Shown: piece after piece, positions 33,389 to 41,479 of the stretch | Layout: each line of letters begins with the position of its first letter | Position numbering within the stretch: the first letter of the stretch is position 1 | Source: Apophysomyces variabilis | Lineage: Eukaryota; Mucoromycota; Mucoromycetes; Mucorales; Mucoraceae | Direction of reading: 5' to 3' | Length of the DNA: 64,000 nt | Assembly: GCA_002749535.1 (NCBI GenBank) | Contig: MZZL01000409.1 | Coordinates: 2,124,160-2,188,159, forward strand | The notes under the pieces: generated by a model | Databases searched by the model: none | What the model was told of the DNA's origin: nothing | What the model saw: only the letters and a program-made list of their open reading frames with translations | Position numbers and translations under genes: made by a program

Positions 33389-34885
33389 TTGGCATAAATA
33401 TTGTAAAATGGACACAACAACTCTGTAAAAATTTCTAACTGCATACCGAGTCTTCGCATTGAAATCCTTTAAAGCCAACCTCCATTTTAGCAACATGGGT
33501 GATTACTTCCACAATAAAACAACTTATGGGCATCCTTTTGAGTAAATAAGGAGAAGGCTATACAATGAGACTTGAAAGGGATGATTTATCCGATAAAATG
33601 CTAAGATCACTTTGAAGCTGCTGACTGCGAGGAGGTGTAATGGCAACGTTTGATAGTCGATTGCTTTGTTACATTGAGTTTATTCAAATTCTTGCTTTAG
33701 AATTTGACGTGCTATAGGTAATTGCACCATTTAAAACGTACTTTTCTGTCAGCAAACTAAGATAGCTTTGGGCTGACTGGGCTTGAACTTTGCGTTAGTA
33801 CTACATCAGAATAGTCACTGTTGGAAGGAAAGAGCTCACGCTTTTACTGGACAAAGTCTAAGACCTCCTCTGGTCTAGTATAGCCTCATTAGCTTGCAAT
33901 AATATTCATTCAAATCCAATCTACATGAAGCACAACGATAAGAGGCAACAGTGTCTATCGTTGTTACTGTGTTCTCGTAGTTCAGTTTGGCTGCAAGTAA
34001 AATTTAGTATCGCCTATGCACAACACATAAGGTAGTCCATGATTTACCTATTAGGGTGATATGGACAAATAGCCAGTAAAGATACAGACGCTTTCTGATG
34101 TGAACTGCTTTGCTAGTAGATCTAGAATTAAGTCTTTCAGCTAGATGTGAAAAATCAATATCACGGCCGAGAAATGGAGTAGGCTTTCCACTGTTCTCCT
34201 CCAATGCACAAAACGGCGCTTTCTGCCAACAACTCTTGGAAAAAATTACCACCATGTGCAGTCTCCAGCAGCTGCAACAATTTGTCAGTCCTGGGTAGAG
34301 CCATGGTTCTAAACACGCTGGTACTCACTAATCTATAGCATATTCTTCGACTTCTCTCAGCCTCCAAGTGTTTCTACCTTCAATCAGCTCGCTAGCTTAC
34401 TGTTCCCTAACCCAACAACAATTTCCAGCTATAAGCCTAAACAAACTTTCTTCAGCCCAAATCATCTGATGACCTTAGCATTCCGCACCTATCCGTTCTT
34501 TATCGTAGGATGAGTTATCAGCATAGACAAGAGAGGTTATTCTTCTCAAGCAGGACAAGCCCCTTCTAAAGGTGTCTGAATTCAGCGTTTTTCTACATTG
34601 CTCACTTCATGTCTGCTTAAAATATACTCTTATAGTATAACAAATTCCTATAATAGGCATTGTTGTGAGTCACACAATGAGACTGAATTTAAAAAAAGAA
34701 ACCTGTTATATGTCCGTCATAGCGACGGATGCCGGCCTTCGCATCCTGTTTATAAAATAAGCAAATTACTTGTGCAGATAACTAACAGTAACACCTACCA
34801 GTATGGTGGCTTTCTGAAGACGACTGTACGCACCTATAGTAAAGATATATTAGCTGTTAAAGCTGCCACACTTTAAATATGTCGG
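33389..34885. other. Intergenic region holding the 3' flank of the Fanzor-like gene
   Basis: No conserved coding frame. A GC-richer patch with potential hairpins at 34711-34746 stands out against the AT-rich surroundings, listed separately. No terminal inverted repeat was found by eye. Confidence 0.4.
34711..34746 (-). ncRNA. Candidate structured 3' element (possible omega-RNA scaffold) of the Fanzor-like gene
   Basis: About 140 nt beyond the Fanzor stop codon, two short perfect stems can form: TCCGTC/GACGGA (34713-34718 with 34724-34729) and GGATGC/GCATCC (34727-34732 with 34741-34746). They share three bases, so they are alternatives or partly stacked. TnpB/Fanzor guide RNAs are derived from the 3' end of the ORF and downstream sequence. 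The location and the GC contrast fit this, but two 6-bp stems are weak evidence. Confidence 0.25.
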
Positions 34886-37800
34886 TTACCTTTGAACGGT
34901 GGTATCGGCAATATTGGATATTCCAGCGTCAAAATGGCTGGGATCAAATGGTGGCAACGTTATCCTCTCTGCAGAAAATAGGTTGCTGATCGCCGCTAGT
35001 CCGATGGCCACGGCGGCTTGAACGTCCCGATTTTGAGTCGTACGCCCTGCTTTAAAAGTAACACACTTCGAGTTGACGCAGCGCGAGCTTCCATTCATAG
35101 TACGCCATTTAATTTCCTTGTAACGACGCCCTTTTGGGTGAATTATCTTCTGAAAACAGAATACGCATGTTTGCGAGCTACGATGCTCATCTGTCATTGC
35201 CACTGGGGTGTACCTACGGTGTCTCGCCCGTAACCATTTGCCTCCACGCTTAGGATGGCCTTTCAATCTGGACCCAACACACGTCCCTTGGGTGCCAATC
35301 GCCATAACTGGTATTACCCTCCTTCCGCTATCATGTGGCCCCGCTTCCATCGCGATCTTTCTTCTCTCGTTTGCAGCCACTCTATCGTATATTCTCTCCT
35401 TGTAGAGATCTTGTATCACCTTTTCTTTGTGCCACCTGTTTGAATGGTAAAAATCCCTGAGCGTCTTTCTACAGCTCCGACCAATCTATAAATGTGTATG
35501 TTATCGATAGTTGTCCAAAAAAGACTAACGATTACCTTTTGACAACGAATAATATCTTGGACTGACATAGCTTTCTCCATCGAGGCTTCTTTCAATTGCT
35601 CTTCGGCTGCAAGAACCTCTGTATTCGACTGTGGCAATTATCACATAAGCACAACATATTGTAGCTGGCTTATTTACCTTCTTTCGTCGCTCCCGTTTCT
35701 TGCGGAATGTCCTTGCAAGTGTTTTTTCATCGAGCGATTTTGCCGTGATACGTATCGGCTTTGGTAGCTGGAGCATGTTAGTAGGAGAGACATCGATATC
35801 ATCATCGTGATCATTGACGTTATTGACACCCAGCATCGAATATCGATTGTAAAGCTGTAAATGGAAATCTGCTCTTTGTCTCGTAATAGGCACTGTAGTC
35901 GACAGCACTTGCAAACCGTAATCAGTGCCACTGAACGTTAGTACATTGTTCTGATCTTCTAAAAGTGGCCCAAGGTCTAGTCGGCCTACGCTGTCTTCAC
36001 AGCCGGGGCGTCTCCCACTTTGGGGTCTGCACAGGCTATCCTCCTCCTCCTCCTCATCCTCCTCCTCATTTTCCTCGTCGTTATTGTCGTTGTGCTTGTC
36101 CTTCTTTTTCTCCTTTTCTTTTTTGTATTTGGTATCTTCTTCATCACCGTCTGCTTCCTCCATTTTCTCGTCTTCTCCTCCTTTGCTTTTTCTCTCTTTT
36201 CTGCCAGCAGGACTTTTACCTTTTTTCTTTTGATGCGCTTTCACCAACTGTACGATTCTGTATATTAATATACGCTTTTATGTTGATGCAAGTTTGTATT
36301 CAACGTTACCTGTTCCAACTTGTACTTCTTCCGTCTTGCATTTGCTAACCGATCGTGTACTTGATTCAAAGCCATTTGTTGGTTTGACCAGTTCAATTTT
36401 GCAGCTTTTAAAGCTTCATAGCTCAGTTTCTGCTGTTGATATGCTGCTTCCTTTTCAGTAACGTTTTCATGTTTGTCTGCCTTTCTTTTGTCCCTTATGC
36501 GCTTTTGACAAATAGCTTGATTTTCCTGATAGCTAGAGCGCAAACCTGCAACTAACTTCGTGGCTTCTTTCACAAGCTTGGTGTGTTGACCTTTCAACGT
36601 TTCAAGAGTTTTTACATCCTTCTTTGTATCATCGAGAGTCTTTGCTAACTCAGGCGTGCTTTGTTGTTCGATGCTCGGCTCTTGGACGTAGGGTTCCTTT
36701 TTCCTATAATACTTCTTTCGTCTCGCCTCGTACCGTGATTCTATGGGTCTTCTTTGTTCACAAACGTTACCATCAATAATTGCTGTTTTCTGCGGAGTTA
36801 CTGTGATGCACCAGCGTGGTACCAACCCACGCTCCTTGCATGTTTTTTCAATAGCCTCTACGTTGAAAAACGATCCAATCACTGTTCGCTTTTCTGCTAT
36901 TGCTTCGTCTCTGTTTGTGAACACTGAGCCGTCTGCCTTGTAAATATCAAGCTGGGCATAGCTTGACCCAAACATTTCATACATGGCTACTGCATCTAGT
37001 GGTAGTGCGTGAACAGAAGCAGGGCTGATTGTGGGACATATCGAAGCAGTGAACTCTTGATATCCAATCGAACAGAGCAAAGCGTTCGCCAATACTACGA
37101 AATTGAGACGCAGCGGTATACAAGGAGCAATTTGTCCCCTAATGACGTACGGCCTTAATGCGTTTGCGATATTCACCACGGTATCGATTTCTTGAGGAGA
37201 AAATGCATCGTCCGCATGAGAGGTAGCTAGCACATCTTCCACTGTTACATGGCCGCTGATCTTATCTGACTGTAGGAGGGCTTTGGTAATAGCTTGCAGG
37301 ATACCGAGCTTTCGCCTGCTTGGCTCACTTGTCTCCTCCTTCTCCTCCTCCTCCAGTTCTTCTTCTATTTGTTCGAACACACCGATGTGTGTTTCACCGA
37401 GGGATATCAAAATCTTCGCTTGCTGCTCCTATTTTGCCACGTAAGCATATATCCTAATCAATAATGAAGTTTACCTCTTCTTTTGTAACCGACGCTCGGT
37501 TGTTCATTTGCTCTACTTTTATTGATTTTGGGTTGGACCTGGACTCCGATCGCGCCAGCAATTGGTTTTCGAGCCGTTCGATCGCCTCAGCACACGTCGC
37601 CGCACGCGTGGCTAGCCTTACCAAGATATCATCTTCTTCTTCCTGCTCGATCTGCTTCTTCAAGTTTCGCAATTGCTTTTTCTCGTTTTTTAATTTCCTT
37701 TTGATAGCTTTTTTCCGATATTGGTACTTGATCACTTGTTGCTGCTCGATTTCTTTTTCTCTTGCTAGTTTTGCCTTCTCTCTGATTTCTCGTACTTTTT

Positions 37801-38956
37801 CTTCACGCCTTGGTGCAAGATTAACACGGAGTAGAACACGCAATAAGTGATTCATGCTTCTGTTGTAAAGAGATCCTGCCCACATATTCTTTAAATTCGT
37901 CGAAAATTGCTTCATGTAAAAATGCGACGTCCTGCAAAGACCATCGGGAATTACAGGCTGATTGTCAAGAGTTTGATCATGGAACTGCATCCATAAGTAG
38001 TGTTTTTCTTTGCTCACGTTTCCTTTTGTGCCAAAATATAACCCGTGCAGAAATTGGATATGGTTCTCATTGAACATGGAAAGTAGATCGTTGTTTCGCC
38101 TGCCTGGCATCTCGTCAAGAAACTGCGAAAGATTATCTGGCATTGGGGCTACAGGTACAAAATAGTCATCTACCAGCATACTTTCGTCACGTAATTTTTC
38201 TTTGGGTACAACTGTACGGATATCGAAGCCAGTTGATGTTTGGTCCAATTCAGCTTTCACTGAACCTGATGCTGGGTCTAGAGACAAGGAAACTGACACG
38301 TATTTCAACATGGTAGCACGTACAACAGTTGCCAAGTCGGACACATAATCCGTCATTTGCACGGACGTCGACTCTACCGTGTGCATAAAAATCCTTTTCA
38401 GATTTTCGTCAAGATCCGGCCGCAGTACGGATTTCAAAGGAACTGTACATGTCCTGAAAAGGTTATCCGAGTCTTCATCTTTCTTTTTGGGTCTGTTCTG
38501 CTTTCCTTCAGCTTTGACCACAGCCAAGACATCATCGAAGTTATCGACCGCGCATTGTCTCCAAAATTCGCCTGTTTTATGGGACGACGAGAGTCTAGAA
38601 CGTATCTGTTTCTCTATTGTCCCTTTAGGGACGCCCGCTTTTTTGTCTGCTTCCTCAAAACTTCCTCGAGGGATTCTGTCTGCTTTTTCAAGAGCTTGTC
38701 GCAAACGATTCATCCTTTTTTCTTGAGCCTTCAGTCTCTTTTCTTTTGTTTTGGCAGACTGTTTTCCTTTCTTTGTTTTTCTAGAATTTTTTGTCTCATT
38801 TTTCCACAGTTCGTTTGCTATAGTACTCTTCAACTTCTGTAAAAGTACTCCAAGCAAGGTATTTTTGGCTTGATCGTAGGATATCTGAGGCTCTGTTTGC
38901 CTTTTCCTTTTTCTTCTGGCGCTACCGCGTGGTGTAGGTAATTGTATTTCGTTCAT
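34886..38956 (-). CDS. Intact large Fanzor-like (eukaryotic TnpB homologue) RNA-guided nuclease candidate
   Basis: Five exons on the minus strand (37475-38956, 36310-37428, 35678-36247, 35536-35628, 34886-35485) total 3864 nt, 1287 residues, with all four introns in phase 0. The N-terminal half (about residues 1-860) has Lys/Arg-rich coiled coils, an HTH-like segment and a conserved central region shared with the decayed copy at 1-2.5 kb. A Lys-rich then Glu/Asp-rich linker precedes a RuvC-I motif FSGTDYGL (Asp976). After a basic helix (TLRDFYHSNRWH) come VMAIGTQGT, DEHRSSQTC with Glu1188, a zinc finger (Cys1195, 1198, 1224, 1229) and RuvC-III NRDVQAA (Asp1242). This order is the TnpB/Fanzor C-terminal signature. 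The usual RuvC-II glutamate position appears to read AIGTQG; Glu1188 may be the alternative glutamate described for Fanzor proteins. It is much larger than typical Fanzors. Activity is inferred, not shown. Confidence 0.8.
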
Positions 38957-41479
38957 AAAAAATACAAGAAATGTTGGATCTAGTTCTCAAAAGTAGAACG
39001 GAAAGGTGAGATGCGAATTGTTCTCTGAACTGTTGTCCAATTTTCACTTGACAGATTGGACTGCGAACTTTTCTGATGAAAAAAAAAACTGAAACTTTAT
39101 CACTTTATTTATCGTGGCTAGCTCTCATGTAGTTGAAAAGGAGAAAGAAGATAACGAGAAAAATTCGATTCGGGCAACAGAGAAAAAATGGACAAGTCTT
39201 TATAACGGTTGGCAAAGAAGGGAAAGACCAAGGATACAAAGTATAAAGAACCTAGGTTATAGTGATTGCTATTGAGAAAGAAGCGGCAATACGAATAAAG
39301 AAAATCACAGGGAAGCAAGGGATAAAGGTTAAGCTGACTTGAATATTCATGATCGCACTCCCACTTTTATTCCTTACCTTTTACTACCTTTATATCCAAC
39401 CAATCTTGGTTCATGGAAAAAGATGGAAAAGGTTCGCTTGCAACGTATCAGCGAAAGAAGAAAACAAAGTACGAGAGCAGAAAAGGCACACAATTAAATG
39501 TCTTTGTGTCGGATACAGGCCGCATAATTGCTCCAGTTGGTTGGGTTGATTTAGCCTTGCATCAAAAGATCGATAAAAGCCGGGCACTTGCTGTACCCTT
39601 CCATCTCAAAATCAAAGACCTGCATGCTCCAGAAATCGCGTGGCCTCTGTTCGCAGTAACATCGTACATTGCAACAGAAATCTCATACAGTTGCGTAAAC
39701 GCGCCTCCGTGTTTACATAAAGGTAATACATGGACAAATTGGGAGGTACTTCACATGTATAATCTTTTTGGATTGCCCCCATCAACGGTCGATGTAATTG
39801 TATTTTTTCTCATAGACTTGTGGGTGATTTTTACTCTGCTGCCACATCTTCAAGTCCTTCCCATAAGAATGCCGATGTGAGTGTAATCTCAACGCTGTTT
39901 GAGTAAAGTAAAGACGGCAATCAACTTTTACGTACGAATCCCCCGTAAAATGTCCAAATTGCTAAGGTGTACCGTCGTTTTCTTTGGGATATCCTTGTAT
40001 GGAAACCACTTCTTCAAGACTAAGTTTTGCCTTGATTACGATGTGACCATCTGCGTACTGCTGACCGCTACGATAGACCTACAGAAAATTCAGCAAGAAA
40101 ATGCCTCCTACGGTTTAAATAAAGAATGAAATAGTAAGCACGTTATCATGAATTGCTTTCTGTTTCGATTTATATTGCGCTTTTGTGTTCGAGCTCTGCA
40201 TCTCCGTTTTCAAACTCAATGCATGCACCACAACTTCATGGTCCCGCATACAGTTTTGAATCGACTCCTATAATGCAGGCTCAATAGCATCAGCACTACT
40301 GCTTGCAACCGTTAGAGGGATATCTTCCTGCTGTTAGTCTGGGGTACATGCTTCGGAGGCACTGCTGTTGAACGATAATATTTGGAACGTTCGATGTAGT
40401 GCTTCACTAGCCTTTTAAAGATCTAGTTATCAAAAACTTTTAAGGAAAAAGGAAAGGAAAAGAAGTACATTTACAATCTTTATATAAAGAACAGCCATTT
40501 TGGGGAAAACGTACCCGGTTCGTTGATATATCCCCGCCATTACTACACTGTCTTATCTAAGTCAATAAAAACTTAACTTTAACTAGGAGATTTTCTCCAA
40601 GTTCAAAGAACCAAATACGGCCAGCTTCCAGATTTCTGATTATGTGAAGCTATGGTACTTTGTAAAAGGTATTTAAAAAGCTTAACACCTCGCTTATCAG
40701 TGTCAATGTATATGACTGAAAGCCCGAACTACTGATGATTTGATTCCATTTTGCGTTTAATAAGGGCAGCGATGTGTTGCAAATTCTTGCTGGCACACGA
40801 CAATAGGCATGTGTGTGGAAGAAACGCTATACTACAGATTAACCGAATGCTAAATAGATAACCCATTCAAACAGAAGCTTACTATAGTTTGAATTCGATC
40901 TGTTCTTTCTCTTTATTTTTTAGCTTCCATTACTTTTTTTCTCCAAGAAGATTAAGAAGACAATAGTGAATGAAGCTCACATTATCATTAGTTTATCCAC
41001 AGTTGTCTGCTTTGGATTTCCTGTTGTTATGTTCCCTTTTCTTTATATATTTTTTAACCTTATACACCTAACCTTATCTGAATTTAGATTTAGGTGGAAG
41101 TGACACACACAGAGATACTGTGAAGAGAGAGTTTTTGAAAATGTACGATCCCTGGATCATGGCCGGTCTTGTTGAGTATTTCAGTCTGGTCACAATTTGA
41201 CTGGTGACCTAAGTCATGACCCACTCCTGTTATACCCTAATAGTACCTGATAAACTAACTAGCTATCCTTGGCCTTTATACCAGCATTGACTATTAAGGC
41301 AGCATAGTGTTGATCAGAGTATTCCACCTATTGCCGGCCTTAATTGATTAAGCACAATATCCAAGTCAAGGTCAGACTTCCCCCAGCACCGAATCAGCTG
41401 CGTTCTGAACGATGGCGTATATCGCGCACAACCTGCTCTTGCACTTGTGCTGACTTTAAATCATATCTCTACTCTGTTC
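38957..41479. other. Spacer with an unassigned reading frame near the Fanzor 5' side
   Basis: On the + strand, 39413-39880 is open for 155 codons and 39899-40129 for a further 76 in another frame. The first has a weakly protease-like VSDTGRI segment and a hydrophobic stretch, but I cannot assign a family. Either could be an eroded gene or retroelement fragment. The rest (40130-41479) is AT-rich without features. Confidence 0.3.

Follow-up and report, generated by a model that had tools for sequence, protein, structure and literature searches.

A giant Fanzor1-family gene carried by a putatively Crypton-derived mobile element in Apophysomyces variabilis

What kind of protein is encoded by a five-exon gene of the mucoralean fungus Apophysomyces variabilis that is about twice as long as a usual Fanzor gene, and what moves the element around it? 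The gene lies in a stretch of 64,000 nucleotides (the window; contig MZZL01000409.1 of assembly GCA_002749535.1, positions 2,124,160 to 2,188,159), for which an original prediction, made from the letters alone, had proposed a Fanzor-like RNA-guided nuclease. The window holds an open spliced frame with Fanzor motifs, situated in a multicopy element that also carries a decayed recombinase and that meets its flanks at junctions like those left by tyrosine recombinases (Table 1). On balance, we regard it as probable that a non-autonomous transposon of Crypton origin, probably mobilised in trans, carries the gene of this giant Fanzor1-family protein as its cargo; RNA-guided cutting by the protein is inferred from the layout of the locus.

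The gene and its place among the Fanzors

Splicing the minus strand from 38956 to 34886 yields 1287 residues and a stop, and the predicted five-exon frame, free of stops and frameshifts, therefore stands. Its introns (46, 62, 49 and 50 nt) are bounded by GT..AG in all four cases, and all four fall on codon boundaries. For P0001, a protein of Apophysomyces ossiformis with 45% identity to the window protein, and for L042 (a locus of the window's own genome, described below, that encodes almost the same protein), the exon joints coincide by eye with the four in the window or lie a few residues from them. The motifs FSGTDYGL, CVFC..CVNSKC and NRDVQAA sit where they had been placed, and the composition of residues 868–950 (17 K, 19 E, 9 D) agrees with the Lys-rich then Glu/Asp-rich linker that had been described, which is mostly an insertion of the window family, most of it being absent from P0001 and P0002.

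The published Fanzor motif, D-X(125,275)-[TS][TS]-X-X-[C4]-X(5,50)-RD (PMC3627910), is present as D976-x214-S1191 S1192 (S-S-Q-T)-C1195..C1229-x11-R1241 D1242. In Fanzors, the rearranged glutamate (E_alt) precedes the zinc finger by six residues (PMC10711439), which corresponds to E1188-x6-C1195; this catalytic glutamate, and the multicopy nature of the element to which the gene belongs, go beyond the original prediction. Fanzor1 proteins possess an extra conserved pair, G500 and E536 in SPu-1-1p, with a spacing of 36 (PMC3627910), and the same spacing separates G1152 from E1188, both of which are invariant in a three-sequence alignment. When family profiles were compared with solved structures (PDB), a profile built from the six relatives alone reached SpuFz1 (E 0.004), and a C-terminal profile of six of the seven sequences, window included, reached SpuFz1 (E 0.006) and PpFz1 (E 0.007), with the next match at 0.43; the Fanzor1 proteins of Spizellomyces and Parasitella were the sole solved structures at E < 0.01. 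Comparison by hhalign with ordinary Fanzor exons of the same genome gave a probability of 91 (a single comparison, without database calibration), and a hidden Markov model of the C-terminal part found such exons at two of eight loci (E 3e-4 and 4e-4; 207 frames). The proposed kinship with Fanzors and the TnpB/Fanzor order of domains are thus backed by the PDB profiles and the Fanzor1 motif spacing, and as judged from sequence the Fanzor1 reading of the gene is well supported.

Several results count against this assignment. The full-length window protein had no match in Pfam, exon 5 alone found no chain in the PDB, and a profile from alignment A3 (exon 1 and relatives) reached SpuFz1 merely at E 0.11. 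The TNB domain (PF07282) stayed below threshold in the C-terminal piece (12.3 bits, cut-off 26.3) and was matched in four of six members at a best E of 0.051, with unrelated models scoring equally or better in single members; in a Pfam repeat on alignment A1, one of three members matched DUF2963 (E 0.013). The RuvC-I motif is DYG in the window protein and in five of the six relatives, with DPG in the 859-aa P0006. Fanzor RuvC-I motifs are described as DPG "near exclusively" and those of TnpB as usually D, a hydrophobic residue and G (PMC10711439); because of that wording, DYG weakens the case for membership of the Fanzors without precluding it. Low-confidence models of P0006 and exon 1 (mean predicted local distance difference test scores of 49 and 57) gave no Foldseek match at E ≤ 0.001, and as the structure models were uninformative, the family assignment rests on sequence profiles and motif spacing.

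The predicted doubling in size holds for 1287 aa compared to Fanzor1 proteins of mostly 600–700 aa (PMC11423790), some of which reach ~800 aa (PMC10711439). Two protein searches (two matches among the best 8000 scored candidates in one, five among 2762 in the other) revealed at least six relatives of 859–1547 aa, from Apophysomyces (1285 aa), Mortierella alpina (1489, 1547, 1403 and 859 aa) and Haplosporangium (1345 aa). One of them, P0005, has just 67 residues between D and SS, perhaps because the copy is damaged or the gene model wrong. In the window protein, RuvC-I begins at about residue 970, such that the preceding part is the larger portion of the protein; this part is partly helical by prediction, including a long coiled coil, and conservation of the N-terminal part extends to Mortierella. 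Measured against a decayed copy (C94:1834466), the ratio of nonsynonymous to synonymous substitution rates (dN/dS) was 0.35 overall, with values of 0.41 (residues 1–494), 0.39 (495–867), 0.51 (868–960) and 0.19 (961–1286), indicating that the N-terminal part is also under selection and the nuclease part most of all. Against this stands a dN/dS of 0.93 for six intact copies compared to the window (44 differences), among which recent selection is therefore not visible; pooling all near-identical copies gave 0.71. The gene is more than a chance frame, because the family profiles find Fanzor1 in the PDB, residues 961–1286 are constrained and the gene is multicopy.

In the same genome, at least 73 places match TNB at E ≤ 0.001 (150 of 164 candidates scored; e.g., L001–L008). 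Ordinary Fanzor-type last exons occur at seven of the eight TNB loci examined, and the giant gene is absent from the TNB list.

Copies, ends and insertion sites of the element

The element extends ~2.3 kb past the start codon of the giant gene, and in three 10-kb copies homology ends at 34632–34652 and 41246–41258. Exon 1 recurs at 97–100% identity in 15 places of the genome, window included, the upstream 2.2 kb module is full length in 13 places (with older relatives of 66–83% identity elsewhere), and 17 matches to the left end were found (≤3 mismatches; reversed-pattern control, 0). An intact coding sequence, free of stops and of missing, deleted or inserted bases, was present in seven of 16 mapped copies, a set that includes the decayed copy and a copy on C39 covered only from 35972 on. 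Three contigs begin within the gene-5' end of the element (C48:1-126, C112:1-121 and C15:1-109), which shows that the assembly is interrupted at copies of it and makes the copy number a minimum.

Both junctions could be read in 12 copies, a set from which C59 (left end lost) and copies with one end were excluded. The left flank ends in A before GTATAACA in all 12 (a partnerless left end at C71 has G in place of A), and the right flank starts with GTAC[A/C]T in nine; AGTA is present at both ends in most copies. There is no long inverted repeat at the element ends, but the borders, when joined, read TGTTATAC-CCTAATA-GTATAACA, which is a pair of 8-bp inverted arms around a 7-nt overlap. The right overlap is altered in four of the 12 copies (CCTATTA, CCTACTA and, twice, CCTAACA), in each of which the changed base equals that copy's own left-flank base, and it is CCTAATA in the remaining eight regardless of flank. 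Summed over the 12 copies, the match length between overlap and flank was 34, compared to 24.8 when permuted (p = 0.0039). In one copy (C95:1210827), CCCTAATA is also found on the left side.

One of the 12 insertions (C94:2181104-2187712; L047/L048) lies in a repeat, for which six empty sites (L077–L082) were available. These read CATTTATT-T-GTACATTTAC or nearly so, compared to CATTTATT-A-GTACATTTAC for the joined flanks of the filled site, such that there is no duplication and no loss at the junction and one base differs. The filled repeat lacks ~29 bp that are present in all six empty sites, ~20 bp left of the junction, a gap that may be an old deletion or part of the insertion. Given the arms with their 7-nt overlap, the target bases within the overlap and the lack of duplication at the empty sites, the junctions are read as the trace that a tyrosine recombinase leaves by staggered strand exchange.

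Related elements occur in the same genome. A second giant-Fanzor family, which encodes nearly P0001 of A. ossiformis, is represented by L042 (C79:111413-121348) and L063 (C83:178977-188912), which share 4960 bp at 100% identity, differ in their flanks and both have the right border GGTATTTC. L076 (C88:269000-272500) is an old derivative of the element with an internal deletion, in which the 3' module (76–78%) and the gene start region are retained and most of the gene is lost.

The recombinase remnant and the candidate guide RNA

With the recombinase of C77:600646-601749 as query, tblastn matched the remnant upstream of the giant gene at 45% over 220 columns (6 stops, E 1.6e-49) and, in a second frame of the window, at 76% over 33 (2 stops). 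The catalytic C-terminal exon of the C77 recombinase (HAGRGSGAR..HGRW..WYL) had no match in window positions 38901–41300 or in the three whole 10-kb copies. As the stops of the remnant recur in these three copies (5–6 and 2), the recombinase had decayed before the copies spread. PF16787 (NDC10_II), which we take to be the Crypton recombinase domain, was detected inside two other copies of the element, at C95:1215555 (E 1.8e-6, above the cut-off) and C94:825294 (E 2.9e-4, below it), and was strong at C77 and C116, the sites of older relatives of the upstream module. Stops interrupt the matches at C77 and C116 and may reflect either introns or decay. The genome has further Crypton-type recombinase frames, of which some are stop-free, such as C94:1667522-1668490, which is accompanied by a GCR1_C match at C94:1666816. 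A serine recombinase (Resolvase PF00239), as expected in an IS607-like/Fanzor2 context, had no match genome-wide (control positive in 10 of 14).

Located ~110 bp inside the 3' homology limit at C116 (L085:3815-3833) and C77 (L084) is the inverted motif GTTATACC-NNN-GGTATAAC, the arms of which have the same letters as the end arms of the Fanzor element. This likeness in sequence is suggestive, not proof, that C77/C116 and the Fanzor element share a recombinase. Two observations speak against a Crypton derivation with help in trans: the terminus of C77/C116, the sole Crypton family examined near its ends, was not matched to the element, and the recombinase remnant was not found in the sister family L042/L063.

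Seen on the gene strand, the element has a conserved 5' flank (A[T/G]GTAC) and a 3' flank that is different in each copy, so that an empty site presents first a candidate target-adjacent motif (TAM) and then guide-matching DNA. The same TAM-then-guide arrangement is familiar at TnpB and Fanzor loci. By analogy, an omegaRNA from the 3' module is plausible, and the layout suggests that the giant Fanzor may cut the empty site under RNA guidance. The stem-loop in the module has a counterpart in L042, CCUGUC-GCUAU-GACAGG, in which two of six pairs are changed on both sides (four sequences). Within 34635–34710, next to the gene-3' end, the terminal arm can pair with an inverted copy of itself lying ~60 nt further in (ATAACAGGTTTC and GGAATTTGTTAT), possibly as an end hairpin. 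Weighing against a structured RNA, 65 of 500 shuffles were as good in the stem-loop test on the four sequences (22 of 24 cells paired), and the predicted fold of the 3' module as a whole does not surpass that of shuffled sequences (z = −0.99).

Under the preferred reading, the element would be moved by a Crypton recombinase whose gene lies at another place in the genome, through exchange of the 7-nt overlap at sites of the form ...A|GTAC[A/C]T. The 3' module would be transcribed into an omegaRNA with the flanking DNA past the gene-3' end as its guide, and the nuclease would take the conserved A[T/G]GTAC flank as TAM and cut the empty site, in which the TAM is joined to guide-matching DNA. Repair of the cut empty site would then copy the element back or spread it, for which a sister-chromosome copying idea has been presented (PMC10432273), and the extra residues before RuvC may act in RNA, DNA or partner binding.

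Table 1. Coordinates of the element, the giant gene and associated features in the window.
Feature	Position	Strand	Remarks
Whole mobile element, ~6.6 kb	34635..41242	(-) gene strand	Left border GTATAACA, right border CCTAATA
Flank at gene-3' end	34615..34634	(-)	Differs in every copy read; candidate guide, putative role
Arm at gene-3' end	34635..34648	(+)	GTATAACAAATTCC
3' noncoding module, candidate omegaRNA scaffold	34635..34885	(-)	99-100% in 16/21 genomic matches, some partial
Stem-loop UCCGUC-GCUAU-GACGGA	34713..34729	(-)	Within 3' module; kept in other families
Exon 5	34886..35485	(-)	Residues 1089-1287 + stop; RuvC-II, C4 zinc finger, RuvC-III
RuvC-III aspartate D1242 (RD)	35024..35026	(-)	Invariant in window protein and six relatives
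C4 zinc finger C1195, C1198, C1224, C1229	35063..35167	(-)	Four Cys invariant in window protein and six relatives
Rearranged Fanzor-type glutamate E1188	35186..35188	(-)	Invariant in window protein and six relatives; definition from PMC10711439
Exon 4	35536..35628	(-)	Residues 1058-1088
Exon 3	35678..36247	(-)	Residues 868-1057; charged linker, then RuvC-I
RuvC-I aspartate D976 (D-Y-G)	35921..35923	(-)	D invariant in window protein and six relatives
Exon 2	36310..37428	(-)	Residues 495-867
Exon 1	37475..38956	(-)	Residues 1-494, extra N-terminal part
Decayed Crypton tyrosine recombinase (NDC10_II type)	39364..40078	(-)	Two frames, 6 and 2 stops
Arm and overlap at gene-5' end	41228..41242	(+)	TGTTATAC-CCTAATA
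Flank at gene-5' end	41243..41248	(-)	GTACCT (gene strand AGGTAC); candidate TAM and putative recombination target

Other readings and known systems

A Fanzor-derived passenger that has abandoned RNA-guided cleavage, the enlarged N-terminal part of which binds the element ends, a host factor or similar, is fairly unlikely. The doubled length, an extra part that makes up the larger part of the protein, the DYG in place of DPG and the dN/dS of 0.93 among recent intact copies would all be consistent with it, but the window protein and six relatives all share D976, E1188, D1242 and the four zinc cysteines, the RuvC/zinc finger region is the most constrained (dN/dS 0.19, compared to 0.39–0.51 elsewhere), and D-hydrophobic-G is the usual RuvC-I of TnpB (PMC10711439). 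We consider it unlikely, too, that a Crypton exchanged its own recombination for RNA-guided copying, with the recombinase decaying before the burst of copies and the giant Fanzor, equipped in its long N-terminal part with a new DNA- or recombinase-docking module, driving the spread by cutting empty sites through a TAM that equals the recombination target.

That the N-terminal part is itself a recombinase, fused to the Fanzor nuclease in a one-gene autonomous element, seems quite improbable. Near-identical copies exist in both the window family and the L042 family, yet no intact recombinase was found in either, the copies L042 and L063 are identical over their 4960 bp in spite of different flanks, and the N-terminal part is constrained and conserved to Mortierella; against the fusion, the part has no Pfam or PDB similarity to any recombinase (the tyrosine-recombinase residue pattern was not searched for), and the same genome holds Crypton-type recombinase frames that might act in trans. 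A different RNase H-like or zinc-ribbon transposase is very improbable, since the modest Fanzor profiles (best E merely 0.004–0.007, or 0.11 with A3) and the lack of any Pfam model at cut-off in the window protein are outweighed by the Fanzor1 motif spacings, E_alt and the G..E distance of 36 included, and by Fanzor1 proteins being the only PDB matches below 0.01.

Read as Crypton-derived cargo, the giant gene can be set beside three known systems. SpuFz1 of Spizellomyces punctatus and PpFz1 of Parasitella parasitica share the order of RuvC-I, E_alt, C4 finger and RuvC-III, and the SPu-1 element is likewise multicopy in its fungus, with no transposase found between its repeats; the window protein differs from Fanzor1 in a much longer part before RuvC-I, in DYG and in sub-threshold Pfam scores, and its element in having no terminal inverted repeats (TIRs). 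The remnant is related to Crypton-type recombinases (NDC10_II/GCR1_C) of the same genome, and the ends have short arms and no TIR as in Cryptons, but no working recombinase is seen in the window element, and a Fanzor gene is carried. The third system is MCi-2A of Mucor circinelloides, which holds a Crypton transposase without ~200 C-terminal residues together with a Fanzor and was left unclassified (Bao and Jurka 2013, PMC3627910). Both are multicopy mucoralean elements that lack TIRs and unite a C-terminally shortened Crypton transposase with a Fanzor, though MCi-2 has 11–12 bp target duplications, compared to none at the one insertion with empty sites and a 7-nt overlap here, and the window element's recombinase is full of stops. 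The window element looks like an MCi-2A-like association with clearer ends.

Fanzor1 occurring together with Crypton recombinases is mentioned in PMC10711439, and the novelty of the giant Fanzor1 is its size, lineage and Crypton context; none of the literature matches listed, from which most subscription papers were missing, described a Fanzor this long, which is weak evidence of novelty. A Fanzor1 lineage of about twice the usual length is added, one that surveys based on Pfam would miss. The element bears on the open question of what Fanzors do for their host transposons, as a Fanzor within a tyrosine-recombinase element without an enzyme of its own makes RNA-guided homing and help in trans separable by test, owing to the near-identical copies, the mapped junctions, the empty sites of one insertion and the matching TAM/guide layout. 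It likewise bears on whether MCi-2A and similar Mucor elements, unclassified in 2013, arose from Cryptons. Elsewhere in the genome, DIRS-like retrotransposons that contain RNase H-like as well as tyrosine recombinase frames (L065–L069, on C46, C80, C74 and C94) are present in several near-identical copies.

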